Of a DNA stretch of 22,768 nt, positions 9,815 to 19,989 are shown one piece after another. The notes under the pieces are model-generated. The model made no database searches. It was not told where the DNA came from and saw only the letters and a list, made by a program, of their open reading frames with translations. Numbering within the stretch: position 1 is the first letter of the stretch; every line of letters begins with the position of its first letter. Location: the IMG/VR virus record IMGVR_UViG_3300031812_000023, positions 1 through 22,768 of that record. One strand, given 5' to 3'. This DNA is from a virus. The position numbers were made by a program, and so were the translations under genes.

Positions 9815-10239
9815 CGCTTTAGCTCCCGTTCGATTATGCGAGCGAACTCGCGCATCACGGCACGATTGTAAACCAGTTTGCTTGCTTCTTCGTCCGCGCG
9901 CTTCCAGCCGCTATCTCGGTGAAACGGTTGCTGCGCCGTCCCAACCACAAACGCAGCATAGCGCGCCTTGTTGCGCACGACCACCTGCGCGTTCCCTGTT
10001 GGCGTGACGAACCACTGCTTCGCCAGCCAACCAGTTCGTCGGTAAGGCAGCCGGCCTTTAGCCAACACATACCTGCGCTGTCGCTCGCTCCTCCAGCGAA
10101 TGCGCATTCTTTGGCTTTTAGGCGGATACACGTTCACATTGTCGCGCAGCCTGTAGCCAAGGAACAGCAACGCTGGCGTCAGGTCTAGTTGACCGCGAAA
10201 CACACGCGGAAGATTTAAGCGAACAATAGTTTTGCTCAT
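9811..10239 (-). CDS. Neck / head-tail protein (gp10-like), small basic
   Basis: This 142-residue basic protein lies between portal-MuF and the protease-capsid gene. I chose ATG 10239 (MSKTIVRLNLP), which overlaps the portal stop as ATGA; an in-frame ATG 15 codons earlier lies inside the portal gene. The middle (RRTGWLAKQWFVTPTGNAQVVVRNKARYAAFVVG) resembles HK97 gp10-like tail-completion or minor morphogenesis proteins, which show an RTG..L..... pattern followed by YA..V..G. Those usually sit after the connector rather than before the capsid, so the family call is tentative. Confidence 0.55.
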   Translation of the reverse strand: MSKTIVRLNLPRVFRGQLDLTPALLFLGYRLRDNVNVYPPKSQRMRIRWRSERQRRYVLAKGRLPYRRTGWLAKQWFVTPTGNAQVVVRNKARYAAFVVGTAQQPFHRDSGWKRADEEASKLVYNRAVMREFARIIERELKR

Positions 10240-14728: not shown

Positions 14729-15583
14729 CTAGGGCTCCACATCAAGCGAGAACTCGGCTGCAATCCGGTTTGTGGTCTTGCTGATGGTCAGGCGTCCCCA
14801 CACGCAACCGTACATGCGCGGGGGCTTACCGGTGCGCGCGGAATAACTGCGCTCAGCGTAGTCATCCAGGTACGAAGGGCAGCGTATGTGCCAAGTAAAG
14901 GACCGACGCGGTATGCCGCTCACAGACAACTCCTCGCGCGCGACCGGCAATACGTAGCAGTCGTGCGTATGGCCCTGAACGATGACATCGGCGGAGATGT
15001 AGCTTTGCATGCGGCGGGTGTCCAGCGTCCCAAAGCTCATCATTGCGCCTGAGCCGCTCCCATGCGAGTAGCGAATCGTGAGCGTGCCGATACGCGGGAT
15101 GCTGGTGTGGAAGGTCAGACGAACCCAGCCGGCATAAGGCATCGAGGCGCACTGAGAACCGCGCTCACGCAGCGCAGCCGCGATACGGTCAGTGAGCGAC
15201 GTGCCGTAGTGCTGCAAGACGCTTTGCTCATGGTTGCCCATCGCCAGCATCGCAAAGTTGCCGGCGTAGGGCGCGTAGCGTTCGACCGCGCGGCTAACGA
15301 GCGAGTCAAAATAGTCGTTGCGCTTGTACTGATGAGCCAAACCGGAGTATGAGGCGCGGGGGTCGCCTTTGCCCTGCATCGCGTCACAAAAGTCGCCCAG
15401 GTCCAGGATGATGGCATTGCGCTCGCGCGCAAGTTCTAAATGGCGAATCTCAAGCTCAGACCTTTGGGCAGGGTGGTCATGATGCCGGTCGGAAGAGAGC
15501 ATCAGGTAAATCTCTTCGTCTCGTTTCAGGGTTACGTCAATGTAAAGCACATCCAGTCCGCGCCGGCGGGGCGACCATTGCAC
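14729..15583 (-). CDS. Calcineurin-like metallophosphoesterase
   Basis: This 284-residue protein has the full set of metal-binding motifs: D32 and H34 (SSDRHH), D64 in GDFCD, N117-H118 in MGNHE, H174 in YSHGSG, and H205/H207 in GHTHD. Members hydrolyse phosphomonoesters or phosphodiesters with two metals. The substrate is unknown; nucleic-acid ends, nucleotides or cyclic nucleotides are all possible. The start used is GTG 15583; there is no in-frame ATG until Met28, just before the first motif, and the ribosome site is poor. It is the first gene after the terminator at 15.6 kb, so it may open the late transcript. Confidence 0.8.
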   Translation of the reverse strand: MQWSPRRRGLDVLYIDVTLKRDEEIYLMLSSDRHHDHPAQRSELEIRHLELARERNAIILDLGDFCDAMQGKGDPRASYSGLAHQYKRNDYFDSLVSRAVERYAPYAGNFAMLAMGNHEQSVLQHYGTSLTDRIAAALRERGSQCASMPYAGWVRLTFHTSIPRIGTLTIRYSHGSGSGAMMSFGTLDTRRMQSYISADVIVQGHTHDCYVLPVAREELSVSGIPRRSFTWHIRCPSYLDDYAERSYSARTGKPPRMYGCVWGRLTISKTTNRIAAEFSLDVEP

Positions 15584-15589
15584 GGCAGG

Positions 15590-15597
15590 ATTGTACC
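15590..15597 (-). promoter_or_regulatory. Possible -10 element (GGTACAAT) before the late operon
   Basis: GGTACAAT lies seven bases before the metallophosphoesterase GTG start, just downstream of the terminator. The same octamer occurs at 14707-14700, eight bases before the holin-like ATG. No convincing -35 is present at 16-18 bases in either case, so an alternative or activator-dependent late promoter, or chance, remain open. Confidence 0.25.
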
Positions 15598-15605
15598 TGA
15601 TTTCT

Positions 15606-15640
15606 TAAAAAGAAAGCCAACCACGTCTTGTGGTTGGCTT
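15606..15640 (-). terminator. Rho-independent terminator of the replication block
   Basis: On the minus strand AAGCCAACCAC, loop AAGAC, GTGGTTGGCTT: an 11-base-pair perfect stem, followed by TCTTTTT. It lies between the small nuclease stop (15694) and the metallophosphoesterase start (15583), so it separates early and late minus-strand transcription. Confidence 0.85.
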
Positions 15641-15693: not shown

Positions 15694-15990
15694 TTACGCA
15701 AGTAGGGCGCGCAGGTCGCGCTCAAGCTGGCCGAGCTGGTGCGGTGCATAGCGCAGCACGCGCCAGCCAAGCACGACGGCGCGGTTGTACTTCTCCAGGT
15801 CTGCGAGATAGCCAACCGGTCTGACGTGGCGACCGCGCACCCACACGCCGCCTTCGACCTCGACCGCAATCTTCAAAGATGGCCACGCGAAGTCGAATCG
15901 CCAGCGGCGTTCGGAGTCGAAGCGATATTCGCGTTCGGGCACAGGTAGGCCGAGGCTGAAAGCAATGGCAGAAACCTGGGCGAAGAGCAC
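15694..15990 (-). CDS. Small PD-(D/E)XK endonuclease-like protein
   Basis: The 98-residue protein reads YRFDSERRWRFDFAWPSLKIAVEVEGGVW, with D in FDFAWP and E-x-E in VEVEGG forming the PD-(D/E)XK core (no Lys in the usual place; an unusual EVEGG). KYNRAVVLGWRVLRYAPHQL follows, a tail shared by Vsr-fold/DUF559-like small nucleases common near phage replication genes. These can be resolvases or nicking enzymes; the substrate is not known. The start is GTG 15990 without a clear ribosome site; the frame stays open upstream to a TAG but without ATG. It follows the structured non-coding stretch downstream of the helicase. Confidence 0.65.
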   Translation of the reverse strand: MLFAQVSAIAFSLGLPVPEREYRFDSERRWRFDFAWPSLKIAVEVEGGVWVRGRHVRPVGYLADLEKYNRAVVLGWRVLRYAPHQLGQLERDLRALLA

Positions 15991-16094
15991 TGATCGCGGG
16001 CAGTATAGCAGCCGGGACAGATGGCCGGGATTTGAGCGTTTCTGGCAGGAGCTTCTACAGCGGCAAGGCTAACATAACTTAAAACGCACAGGAA

Positions 16095-16207
16095 GCCCGT
16101 AGAGCCGCGTTTTGGTGGCCAGGGGTATCTAGATACCTATGGTAGCCAAACGAGGCCAAAAATCGGCCTCTGGATGCGTTATAGGCCCTATTTTCCGGGG
16201 GTCGGCG
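16095..16207. repeat. 113-bp imperfect direct repeat, copy 1
   Basis: It begins GCCCGTAGAGCCGCG and ends GGGGGTCGGCG. Aligned by hand without gaps to copy 2 it differs at about 23 of 113 positions. It includes GGTATCTAGATACC (perfect 14-base palindrome, 16124-16137), GAGGCC/GGCCTC flanking AAAAATC, and a 24-base block from AAAAATCGG to GCGTTA shared exactly with copy 2. It is not coding. Confidence 0.85.
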
Positions 16208-16230
16208 GGGCTGTTGGGAACTCAGCAGCC

Positions 16231-16250
16231 AGCTAGCTAGTTAGCTAGCT
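16231..16250. repeat. Perfect-arm palindrome between the repeat copies
   Basis: AGCTAGCTA, GT, TAGCTAGCT. It is flanked by GGGAAC (16216-16221) and GTTCCC (16251-16256), which can pair outside it with a nine-base bulge. It could form a cruciform or RNA hairpin. Confidence 0.8.
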
Positions 16251-16303
16251 GTTCCCTGTCGGCTGTCCCACCGGTTGGAAGCCTCCTGCGGCTTCAAAAA
16301 ACG

Positions 16304-16416
16304 GCCCGTAGAGCCGCGGAAACGTGGGCAAGGGTATCTGGATACCTGTGGAGGCCGAAAGGCCCTAAAAATCGGCCTCTGGATGCGTTACAAGGCATGT
16401 TTTTCGGGGGTCGGCG
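16304..16416. repeat. 113-bp imperfect direct repeat, copy 2
   Basis: It starts 209 bp after copy 1 and lies 17 bp from the helicase stop. Here CCGCG-GAAA-CGTGG forms a tetraloop hairpin where copy 1 has CCGC-GTTTTG-GTGG. GGTATCTGGATACC keeps the 14-base palindrome arms. GAGGCCGA/TCGGCCTC pairs across AAGGCCCTAAAAA. Stems are kept while loop and arm sequences change, which suggests selection on structure. Confidence 0.85.
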
Positions 16417-16433
16417 CGCCTTACCGACACTGA

Positions 16434-17762
16434 CTACTTCGCCCATGCGCCCTTCGGGGCTTCAAAGACTTCAGCGAACGACGCCTTGGCCGCACAAAAG
16501 CCCAGATACATCTTCCCAACCGCGCCGTGGCGATTCTTACGGATTTGCACTTCGATTGTGCGCACAGGCGGCGGGTTAAGCGCGTCGCCTGCGTCAGCGC
16601 GTTCGAGCACGATGAGCGCATCAGCGTGTTGCTCAATGGCGCGAGACTCGCGCACTTCGCCAGCGTCGTTCACCTGCGAGCCGGCGATGATGGACATTCC
16701 GAGTTGGCCGGCCAGCGTCTTGAGCGCGAGAGCTACTTCCGCTACTTCCTGCTCGCGGTTCTGGTCGCGGCGCGTGCGACCGTCTACGAGTTGGATGTAG
16801 TCAACAACAGCAAGCTGAGCACCGTGTTGGGCGTGATGGCGCAACAGGTGGCGCAACTGGCTGACGGAGATGCCGGGACGGTACTCGATGGCAATCGGCA
16901 TCTTAGCGATCTGGTCAGCGGCGTCCATCAGCCGGCGGCGCTGTTCAGCGCGCGTGCGTTCGTCCAGCGCAAGCACGTCTGCTGGAGATAGGCTGATGCC
17001 GGCGTGACGACTGAGCAACACGCGGCAAACTTCCGGCTCGCTCATCTCGCATGAGACGATGACTACAGGCGATTCAGCGCGCGCGGCAGCCAGAGCCATC
17101 TGAATCATGAGCGTAGTCTTGCCGGCCCCAGGCTTACCAGCGACTACGGTCAGCCGACCAGGACATAAACCACCCAAGATGCGGTCAAACGCGCTTAGGC
17201 CGGTAGGGATGCCAGGCAATCGCTCGCCTGCGGCGTCGTAGTCAGCGACGCAGCAGAGAAGGGCGTCAGTGAGCGATAAAGCTTGGTGAGCGCCTGTCGT
17301 GAGCGTAGATATCCTGTTAGATGCGTATGTGGGCAGGTTGTCGCGGCCTTGCTTGGCGGCTTCGATGATGTCCTGCGCGATGAGTATCGCTGTGCGGCGT
17401 TGCCAGTCACGGTAAACGATTTCAGCGTAATGCTGGACGTTCAGCGCGTTAGGGACGACGCAGCAAAGCTGAGCGATGTAAGGTTCGCCCCCTGCTTCTT
17501 CCAGATGTTCTCGTATGCGCAATTCGTCAGAGAGTGAGAGAAGGTCGACCGGGCAGCCGCGCCCGAACAATCTCAGCATCGCTTCAAAGATGCGCTGGTG
17601 ACGCTCTTCCCAGAAGTGCTCTGGTTCGAGCATGTCAGCCAGCACTGCCAGCGCTTCCTGGTCGATGAGCGCTGAACCTAAAGCGGCTTGTTCTGCTTCT
17701 TGGTTGTAAATGGGCGTGATGTCAATAGGGGTTGGCTTAGTTCCGTTTCGGCTTGCGTACAT
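16434..17762 (-). CDS. dnaB: Replicative DNA helicase, DnaB-type
   Basis: This has 442 residues from ATG 17762 (MYASRNGTKPTP); AGAGAGG lies five bases upstream, better than the ATG six codons earlier. The N-terminal domain has YNQEAEQAALGSALIDQEAL and FWEERHQRIFEAMLRLF, typical of DnaB. The RecA-like domain follows: GKPGAGKTT (209-217), VIVSCEMSEPEVCRVLLSRHAGI, Walker B LAVVDYIQL (about 317), then GSQVND and ESRAIEQHADAL. No intein is seen. It unwinds the phage fork as a hexameric ring. It overlaps the O-like gene by 26 nt, matching the lambda O/P-type pairing where the initiator recruits the helicase; a phage-encoded helicase replaces the need for a P loader or works with the host loader. 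Confidence 0.93.
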   Translation of the reverse strand: MYASRNGTKPTPIDITPIYNQEAEQAALGSALIDQEALAVLADMLEPEHFWEERHQRIFEAMLRLFGRGCPVDLLSLSDELRIREHLEEAGGEPYIAQLCCVVPNALNVQHYAEIVYRDWQRRTAILIAQDIIEAAKQGRDNLPTYASNRISTLTTGAHQALSLTDALLCCVADYDAAGERLPGIPTGLSAFDRILGGLCPGRLTVVAGKPGAGKTTLMIQMALAAARAESPVVIVSCEMSEPEVCRVLLSRHAGISLSPADVLALDERTRAEQRRRLMDAADQIAKMPIAIEYRPGISVSQLRHLLRHHAQHGAQLAVVDYIQLVDGRTRRDQNREQEVAEVALALKTLAGQLGMSIIAGSQVNDAGEVRESRAIEQHADALIVLERADAGDALNPPPVRTIEVQIRKNRHGAVGKMYLGFCAAKASFAEVFEAPKGAWAK

Positions 17763-18675
17763 ATCCGCCTCTCTCCTCATCGTAAACGAGCTCGTATTCC
17801 TGCTGAATCGAGCGAATGGCTTTCAGGTTTATCACTGCGCCCGGCCAAGTGCAGGTTAGGCCGGCTTTGCGGGCTTCTTCTCGTGCTGCTTTGAGCCGTG
17901 CTTCGTCGCAGCGCAGTTCGTGCAGCGTCTCGGCAGCCTTGGCCCAGCGCGCCTTGTCGGCCTTCGTTGGCATGACCTCAAAGACGCGGGCGAAGGAGAG
18001 GCACTGCGCCTCAAGGTGTGGTGGGAGTGACCATGCGCGGATGGTGCGCTCGGCTGGGTCTTGTCCTTCCAGCCTGGCTAACACGTGGTCTAGGTAGTCG
18101 CGCATCTTGTTGTTCTGGTTCTCAGAAGAGGACGCGGGCGCGCGCGACGAGCGCGCGCCCTCTCTTTCTTTATTTTCTTTTTTCTTTTGTGGGGTCAAAC
18201 TTTGACCCCTTAAGGGGTCAAGGCTTGACCCCTTAAGGGGGTAATTTTTGACCCCTGCATCGTTGTCAGTGGTCAAATTTTTACCCTCTAAAGGGTTAGG
18301 TTTTGACCCCTTAAGGGGGTAATTTTTGACCCCTACATCATCCTTTGGGGTCAAACTTTGACCCTTTAAGGGGTCAAGACTTGACCCATTAGATGACGGG
18401 ATGGCGCACGAGTAAGACGCTGCCTTGCTGCCTATTGCTCGAGTGCGCTCTACGACCAACCCGCGTTTAAGCAGTCCTCGTAGCCCTGCGCGGACGCTGT
18501 TCCTTGAAAGCCCCGTCATTCGCTGAAGCTGTTCAATGCTAATCTCGTCGCTCTGCTTTTGCCATCCCACTGTTTTGCGTACAATGGCCAGAAGTACCTT
18601 TGTCTCTGTGCATGACAGTTCTGGCAGACACTCGTCAAAGTAAATGTTAGGCACTGTTGTGAACGATTCCATCAT
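17737..18675 (-). CDS. O-like replication initiator carrying the origin
   Basis: 312 residues. Residues 1-80 match the phage replication protein O N-terminal winged helix: TTVPNIYFDECLPELSCTETKVLLAIVRKTVGWQKQSDEISIEQLQRMTGLSRNSVRAGLRGLLKRGLVVE is the family pattern in shortened pieces (VRKTVGW, then MTGLSRNSV as recognition helix). Residues 96-163 are a low-complexity linker (LDPLKGQSLTP, GVKNYPLKG repeats) that is the translation of the DNA iterons. A Lys/Glu-rich stretch and a helical C terminus follow, likely contacting the helicase. AGGAG lies five bases before ATG 18675; a second ATG follows directly. By lambda precedent the protein binds the iterons in its own gene and loads DnaB. Confidence 0.85.
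   Translation of the reverse strand: MMESFTTVPNIYFDECLPELSCTETKVLLAIVRKTVGWQKQSDEISIEQLQRMTGLSRNSVRAGLRGLLKRGLVVERTRAIGSKAASYSCAIPSSNGSSLDPLKGQSLTPKDDVGVKNYPLKGSKPNPLEGKNLTTDNDAGVKNYPLKGSSLDPLRGQSLTPQKKKENKEREGARSSRAPASSSENQNNKMRDYLDHVLARLEGQDPAERTIRAWSLPPHLEAQCLSFARVFEVMPTKADKARWAKAAETLHELRCDEARLKAAREEARKAGLTCTWPGAVINLKAIRSIQQEYELVYDEERGGYVRKPKRN
18136..18160. repeat. GC-only inverted repeat beside the origin
   Basis: GGGCGCGCGC, loop GACGA, GCGCGCGCCC: a perfect ten-base-pair stem at 18136-18160. It is directly followed on the plus strand by a ~30-base pyrimidine/T-rich tract. It could be a single-strand initiation hairpin of the origin or a plus-strand terminator preventing transcription into the iterons. 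Confidence 0.7.
18161..18388. other. Iteron-type replication origin inside the O-like gene
   Basis: At least eleven copies of TTGACCC(C/T/A) or its complement lie at 18191, 18202, 18214, 18225, 18248, 18303, 18326, 18347, 18358, 18370 and 18381, alternating in orientation, with degenerate copies at about 18237, 18270 and 18314. Neighbouring copies are 11-12 bp apart, so they fall on one helix face. TTGACCCCTTAAGGGGTCAA at 18202-18221 is a perfect 20-base palindrome. Plus-orientation copies are 23, 55 or 32 bases apart, so they are read in different codon frames: the DNA, not the peptide, is conserved. An AT/pyrimidine-rich tract at 18161-18190 could be the unwinding element. The arrangement parallels lambda ori within gene O. 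Confidence 0.8.
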
Positions 18676-19375
18676 TCAATCTCCTGGCATGACGCACTTG
18701 TAGGACGCCGGCCTGATTCCCCTTGCGGCTCTCGTTTGCACAATTAATCCGCTTCCTCATCTCAACGATGTAGTGACGTTCACACTCAGAAGCCAGCGAG
18801 AAGATGCGCGTGCCTTTGTATGGCACTATTGCAACGCCAACATAATCCTTCGTTACCAGATTCTTGATAGCTTCTACGAGATACCTCACGTTCAGGCCGA
18901 TACGTCCAGGTAACGTTAGATTAGCGGGAATAGAGACCTTTCCTAGCTCGCCTACGCACTCGATACTTCCTTCGGCGATCTCAAGTTCGCAGTACAACTT
19001 GTGGGCCGTCAATGACTTTGTGTACAGCTTCTTGATTTGCCTGATGTCACTCACTTGAGCAATAGCCACTGCTGCTCTTTTTGTCTTGTCTAGTCTTCGC
19101 AGCCTTTCAATGCGCCAATCACCCCACGGAAGCGCGCTCGTTTTGTCTCTGGCTAAAGCTTCGCTCAGGGACTTTGCATCCCTTAGCACGCTTGCGGGAA
19201 CAGCACTCTCCATCTTCTCGATCTCATGCTTTCCTCGTGTGATCACGCACGCAGCGCGGTATTCACTAATTGACCACGCTTGGACTGAGCCGTCATCTGA
19301 GACCTGAACGACCACGTCACCATCAGGATGCAGTTCGTCAACCGTATAGAGCACCTTCTTTAGCTTTGCGATCAT
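18647..19375 (-). CDS. Sliding-clamp-like protein (DnaN C-terminal domain pattern), candidate
   Basis: 242 residues. The C-terminal ~90 residues follow the last domain of bacterial beta clamps: a strand LYCELEIAEGSIECVGE, then VSIPANLTLPGRIGLNVRYLVEAIKNL (compare the E. coli pattern of ..IGFNVSYVLDVLNAL), a strand, and IFSLASECERHYIVEMRKR in place of the ..AYVVMPMRL end. The N-terminal half is not recognised but could be one more clamp domain. Usual DnaN has three domains and about 366 residues; this length fits two, as in T4 gp45. It would tether polymerase to phage DNA, or mimic the host clamp. The start overlaps the previous stop as ATGA. Comparison is from memory and needs a profile search. 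Confidence 0.5.
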   Translation of the reverse strand: MIAKLKKVLYTVDELHPDGDVVVQVSDDGSVQAWSISEYRAACVITRGKHEIEKMESAVPASVLRDAKSLSEALARDKTSALPWGDWRIERLRRLDKTKRAAVAIAQVSDIRQIKKLYTKSLTAHKLYCELEIAEGSIECVGELGKVSIPANLTLPGRIGLNVRYLVEAIKNLVTKDYVGVAIVPYKGTRIFSLASECERHYIVEMRKRINCANESRKGNQAGVLQVRHARRLNDGIVHNSA

Positions 19376-19989
19376 CGTTCTTCTTCTCTAGGGATGAAAG
19401 CTGTAAACCCGTTGCGGTAATCGAACACGTAGTGAGTCTCTGCGCCCAGCGAGATTTTGAGCGCACGCGCGTGGCGACGCCCCAAAATGTCCACCTGCGC
19501 CGTCTCGTCGTGCGGCATCTGCTCGAAGGCAAAACGCAGCGGCCTACTCCTCACGAGCATTTCTGCGCTGTATAGGGCGATTCCGCCCAGTGTCACGCCT
19601 TGGATGCTCAGCCCCTTGTCGTTGATAGTCACTGTCTTCGCTGCGTCATCATCCTGGAGAAGACTTAGTGCCCAGCGCAAAGTCCACGTCTCGATGATGA
19701 CGCTAGCTAGGCTTTTGTGTCTCTCCATCACCTCGCAGATGTGGGGATGGTTGTGCTTGAAACCGTAGAGCAGCGCGGCGCTCTCGATTTCTTCAGCGGA
19801 TTGTAGGCCGGCCAGACGCTCGCACGACACTACGTATCGCGTCCTCTTTCGCGTCTTCGTTGGCCACACGTACTTCGCGGCTTGCTCTGCGTTGGACGCA
19901 AGCAAGTACAGCCGGCTTCGCTCAGTCCCGACGACAACGTCAAAGGATGCGCAGTACAGAAGGTTCTTAGGATAGGTGTTAGGGTTCAT
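19372..19989 (-). CDS. Unknown protein upstream of the clamp-like gene
   Basis: 205 residues, no membrane segment. GGAGAAACAG precedes ATG 19989, and both ends overlap neighbours as ATGA. The C-terminal half is strand-rich (AKTVTINDKGLSIQGVTL, PLRFAFEQM, LKISLGAETHYVFDYRNGF). Its layout loosely echoes that of the adjacent clamp-like protein (strand pair, helix, then a His-Tyr strand near the end), so a diverged paralogue or partner is possible, but I cannot support homology by eye. Co-transcription with the initiator and helicase suggests a replication-related role. Confidence 0.6.
   Translation of the reverse strand: MNPNTYPKNLLYCASFDVVVGTERSRLYLLASNAEQAAKYVWPTKTRKRTRYVVSCERLAGLQSAEEIESAALLYGFKHNHPHICEVMERHKSLASVIIETWTLRWALSLLQDDDAAKTVTINDKGLSIQGVTLGGIALYSAEMLVRSRPLRFAFEQMPHDETAQVDILGRRHARALKISLGAETHYVFDYRNGFTAFIPREEER

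Follow-up and report, generated by a model that had tools for sequence, protein, structure and literature searches.

A conserved intergenic element of a phage replication region with sequence relatives beside a tyrosine recombinase gene in Chloroflexota genomes

The window analyzed here is an entire IMG/VR record of 22,768 bases. On its minus strand, a DnaB-like helicase gene is followed by a repeated intergenic element and then by a nuclease-like gene. The original prediction described two ungapped copies of this element in a gene-free stretch (16095-16207 and 16304-16416) and proposed that they represent a tandem structured RNA. The two copies are identical at 90 of 113 positions and lie 209 bp apart (79% identity when extended to 118 nt), no credible gene is present in 15991-16433, and both hairpins quoted in that prediction are found in the sequence. 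The homologous unit exceeds 113 bp, with copy A covering ~16081-16212 and including an outer arm (AACGCA/TGCGTT) that is missing on one side in copy B. Copy B starts within the remnant of the 3' end of a lost open reading frame (ORF) with CxxC motifs. The features of the locus are as follows.

15694-15990, minus strand: nuclease-like gene (PHROG 503, unknown function), downstream neighbor of the element
16002-16010, minus strand: extended -10 promoter TGCTATACT, which is conserved in relatives and serves the downstream gene, itself leaderless
16081-16212, minus strand: copy A, complete unit (R1, 109 bits at 16081-16200), consisting of a 5' block TATAACGCATCCAGAGGCC, a T-rich hairpin loop, an apical inverted repeat, a 3' core and the outer arm TGCGTT
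16089-16104, minus strand: 3' core CTCTACGGGCTTCCTG of copy A, the part common to bacterial genomes (R2 match at 16083-16107, 24.7 bits)
16124-16137, unstranded: apical inverted repeat GGTATCTAGATACC of copy A (two matches in the window versus 0.28 expected)
16213-16301, unstranded: spacer between the copies, rich in hairpins, with no recognizable homology to the spacer of contig L041
16297-16317, minus strand: CGGCTCTACGGGCCG followed by TTTTTT at the 3' edge of copy B, predicted to be an intrinsic terminator (score +6.7)
16302-16421, minus strand: copy B, unit without the outer 3' arm (R1, 90 bits at 16302-16409)
16304-16313, minus strand: truncated 3' core CTCTACGGGC of copy B
16333-16346, unstranded: apical inverted repeat GGTATCTGGATACC of copy B (same window search as for the copy A repeat)
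16434-17780, minus strand: DnaB-like helicase gene, upstream neighbor of the element

Inside an O-like replication gene, three 78-bp repeats contain GGGGTCAAxCTTTGACCCC palindromes (18191-18426), and a lambda-type origin is likely located at these repeats. Their presence disfavors the element as the primary origin, and a switch in GC skew was looked for at the element and not found. Two adjacent unnamed proteins of the replication module (18647-19375 and 19372-19989) gave the impression of resembling each other and sliding clamps. A packaging site, one alternative raised in the original prediction, gained no support, as the element lies between the helicase and nuclease-like genes and the gene for the terminase large subunit is ~2.8 kb away. 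In this phage group, TATACT/TATAAT-like boxes (15984-16010 and ~15583-15600 in the window) precede the gene starts by a few bases, and many transcripts are therefore probably leaderless. A strong intrinsic terminator is predicted at 15612-15640, after the nuclease-like gene.

Known phages gave no match to the whole element. A single copy is present at the equivalent position in five viral contigs (L002 to L006), whose DnaB proteins are 81-85% identical, and a contig of a Chloroflexota metagenome-assembled genome (L041) carries the tandem as in the window. In all five single-copy relatives, the element is preceded by an ORF of 82 aa that contains two CxxC motifs and whose stop codon lies inside the element. 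This conserved CxxC-CxxC protein, encoded after DnaB (L003:11319-11564 and relatives), has been lost from both the window and L041. Genes 3' of the element also vary: two small genes, read as RHH-like, are inserted just downstream in L002 and L004, and a different gene is inserted there in L005. Throughout this phage group the element is always found at the end of the DnaB operon. Copy A is 71-81% identical to the elements of other phages (54% in the case of L005), compared to 48-60% identity at the four-fold sites of DnaB. As the identity of the element exceeds that of these sites, the element is under constraint. The B copies of the window and L041 are 85% identical. The strong sequence constraint upholds the earlier claim of a functional noncoding element; the controls for folding and covariation and the Rfam search do not extend this to a structured RNA.

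A stretch of 346 nt covering the locus folds better than every shuffled version on both strands (z of -4.65 for plus and -4.27 for minus), so that folding alone cannot choose the strand. Single copies reach a z of only -2.5 to -0.4, and the spacer ~-2.6 and -2.2. With RNAalifold and column-shuffled alignments, the plus strand gave a z of -1.3 to -2.5 and the minus strand ~-0.5. The best of these values, -2.5 for seven complete copies, favors a noncoding RNA transcribed from the plus strand as originally proposed, as does the quoted hairpin, in which wobble pairs are G-U on the plus strand. That observation was offered as a sign of strand and holds for this hairpin, but in two other conserved hairpins the minus strand alone gives G-U at every wobble. 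Furthermore, the quoted hairpin is missing or broken in copy B of L041, in L003 and in L005, as read from their sequences, and neither a promoter nor a terminator was found on the plus strand at the element. Compensatory changes had been named as a test of the RNA; among the phage copies, no pair of alignment segments showed matched complementarity above permuted rows. No match to the element at the gathering score was obtained in Rfam, and no family came close to the threshold. The copies from bacterial genomes showed no excess folding (n=23, mean z of -0.3 and -0.4) and no consensus structure in an alignment that included one empty row and whose z is approximate. Collectively, these results leave the structured RNA weak and make a plus-strand RNA very improbable.

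An RNA element on the sense strand, which would end the replication operon by providing a terminator, attenuator or processing hairpins on the DnaB mRNA, is better placed. The element always follows the DnaB or CxxC genes and usually precedes a gene with its own promoter, and a good predicted terminator, ranking fourth on the minus strand in a terminator scan of the window, ends copy B. Three minus-strand hairpins keep their pairing, with wobbles that are valid on that strand only. However, these hairpins were chosen by eye, and an unbiased hairpin scan was borderline on the plus and minus strands alike. Copy A and the copies of the relatives score as nonterminators (best score -10.6), and the CxxC ORF directly adjoins the nuclease-like gene in a more distant phage (L066) from which the element is absent. 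Given also that the bacterial copies share no conserved structure, we regard such an operon-end RNA as unlikely.

The distribution of the element outside the phage group points in a different direction. A sequence-only profile built from nine copies gave weak matches in Chloroflexota genomes; ParA and RHH genes adjoin two of these matches. The core CTCTACGGSCYTYCTG was found 32 times in 16 of 386 Chloroflexota genomes, compared to four matches for a reversed-pattern control, and several copies can be present per genome, with conservation extending ~75-110 bases upstream of the core. A second profile (R2) recovered additional copies as well as the phage sites, scoring 24.7 bits in the window, and the copy in L172/L208 also has a phage-like apical repeat. 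In four regions (L210, L211, L220 and L223), sites run in the same orientation at intervals of 0.8-1.6 kb, and small ORFs lie in these intervals; other copies are near ParA/RHH or rep-like genes. The match in L173, which falls inside a likely gene, was set aside, and core matches in L181, L182, L194 and L195 look like chance or coding matches. Judged by sequence, the phage copy belongs to a family dispersed through Chloroflexota genomes, and the core was not found in print in the collection of papers searched. Two tandem arrays were noted along the way. A Chloroflexota array of 61-63-bp hairpin units (L158:1-430) looks CRISPR-like but is degenerate, and a 38-bp match to a GC-rich array in G684, considered as a CRISPR spacer, was dropped because that array is a degenerate minisatellite (second copy 77%).

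In six Chloroflexota regions, a conserved tyrosine recombinase gene starts 135-315 bp (in one case 1.4 kb) from the site. The arrangement is always divergent, with the site pointing away from the recombinase, which contains Pfam Phage_integrase and SAM-like domains. Among recombinases at least ~81% identical and with their start present, the site is upstream in seven of nine, whereas it is upstream in none of eight that are 43-69% identical; one other relative has a different layout. The presence of the site thus differs between close and distant homologues (Fisher p 0.002, in a test that treats related copies as independent). Similarity between the recombinase-site modules extends on one side to the stop codon of the recombinase gene, and on the other side it stops shortly past the core. 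Since these modules are homologous copies, the adjacency may reflect one ancestral event. Fragments of ~90-160 nt that match only the 3' end of the recombinase gene are also scattered in these genomes (L211:8496-8594 and 9966-10064; L212, L218 and L224) and perhaps represent the second end of a mobile unit. The phage element looks like one copy of an undescribed kind of DNA site, found repeatedly next to a recombinase gene in Chloroflexota.

Intergenic copies of the core are also present in unrelated viral contigs. In two of them (L253 and L257), the core follows a large serine integrase gene at a distance of ~115-130 bp, the usual position of attP. Matches of lower significance lie on sphingomonad plasmids (preceding repA by ~730 bp in the single case annotated there), on a 3-kb Klebsiella plasmid with MobV and Rep (preceding rep by ~250 bp), and in Citrobacter and E. 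coli close to genes for inovirus-type Gp2. Taken singly, the plasmid and enterobacterial matches are weak, with E-values of 0.04-3, and those inspected have no recombinase of the Chloroflexota kind annotated alongside. Membership of plasmids and other phages in the family is less certain. These neighbors, together with DnaB in the phages and the ParA/RHH and rep-like genes in Chloroflexota, suggest that the element could be a site for lagging-strand or single-strand initiation, at which the single-stranded unit would fold and a primase or primosome would start near the conserved CTG ending CTACGGGCYTCCTG. Such a role is possible yet doubtful, as several of the plasmid matches are at chance level by E-value, a priming role would not account for the occurrence of several chromosomal copies next to a tyrosine recombinase, and replication of the phage likely starts instead at the palindromic repeats of the O-like gene.

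We favor the interpretation that the element acts in cis as a ~100-bp DNA site carried by mobile elements and that it would serve as substrate of a recombinase or a replication enzyme, recombination coming first; we assign this a probability of roughly 0.4. The constraint, the tandem in L041, the single copies in L002 to L006 and the enrichment of the core argue for this interpretation, as do the same-orientation runs, the divergent recombinase, the serine integrase neighbors in L253 and L257, and the apical arms, which differ on both sides around loops of 3-9 nt. The recombination or second-origin site that the original prediction listed as an alternative fits this wider distribution better than an RNA does. 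Among the candidate mechanisms, recombination would be followed by single-strand priming and then by an operon-end RNA.

If recombination is the role, the site would be the substrate of the Chloroflexota tyrosine recombinase or of a relative in the host, and may be read as a folded single strand, like the attC of integrons. The phage copy would then act as a docking place for DNA segments entering or leaving, which would fit both the gene turnover around the element (loss of the CxxC ORF, the two RHH genes in L002 and L004, and the insert in L005) and the variable spacer between the two copies. Several observations stand against the recombination site: the similarity of phage and host copies is strongest over only ~25 nt, no recombinase of the site-associated Chloroflexota family was found in the phage group, and no excision or junction was seen. 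A more elaborate picture, in which Chloroflexota possess an integron-like system with a non-IntI tyrosine recombinase, a divergent site and dispersed sites bounding small cassettes, and phages provide a dock for the cassettes, is speculative and improbable as a whole.

A recombinase substrate would imply cassette capture in Chloroflexota that is independent of IntI, with phages as vehicles, while a replication start would imply a priming sequence widely shared by mobile replicons. Under both readings, phages and bacterial genomes share an intergenic sequence that carries no annotation, and the pairing of recombinase and site makes the question directly testable.

Compared to known systems, the Chloroflexota loci share several features with integrons. 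First, as with attI/attC and IntI, the recombinase gene is divergent from the adjoining site. Second, the Chloroflexota genomes, unlike the phages, contain arrays in which successive sites point the same way and are separated by small ORFs. Third, the sites contain imperfect inverted repeats. However, the Chloroflexota recombinase is not IntI (NCBIfam gives only weak XerC/XerD/XerA matches, far below the cut-off), and the recombinase-adjacent site and the distant sites have one common sequence. The RYYYAAC/GTTRRRY ends of attC are present in none of nine phage and none of 21 host units on either strand. With no end boxes in 30 units and an enzyme other than IntI, a canonical integron attC was rejected. 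Phage-borne attC sites working with IntI1 have been reported (PMC9892861), and a recombination site on a phage is thus a known kind of thing.

The attP and attB sites of tyrosine or serine recombinases are likewise short, intergenic and adjacent to an integrase, but the element is dispersed in many copies and no recombinase of the site-associated Chloroflexota family was found in the phage group. Single-strand initiation sites of plasmids and phages, likened here by description only, are intergenic, form hairpins and lie near replication genes. REP- and MITE-like repeats are also short, dispersed intergenic copies with inverted repeats. Compared to these repeats, the element has a fixed position in the phages, is conserved above four-fold sites and is associated with a recombinase.
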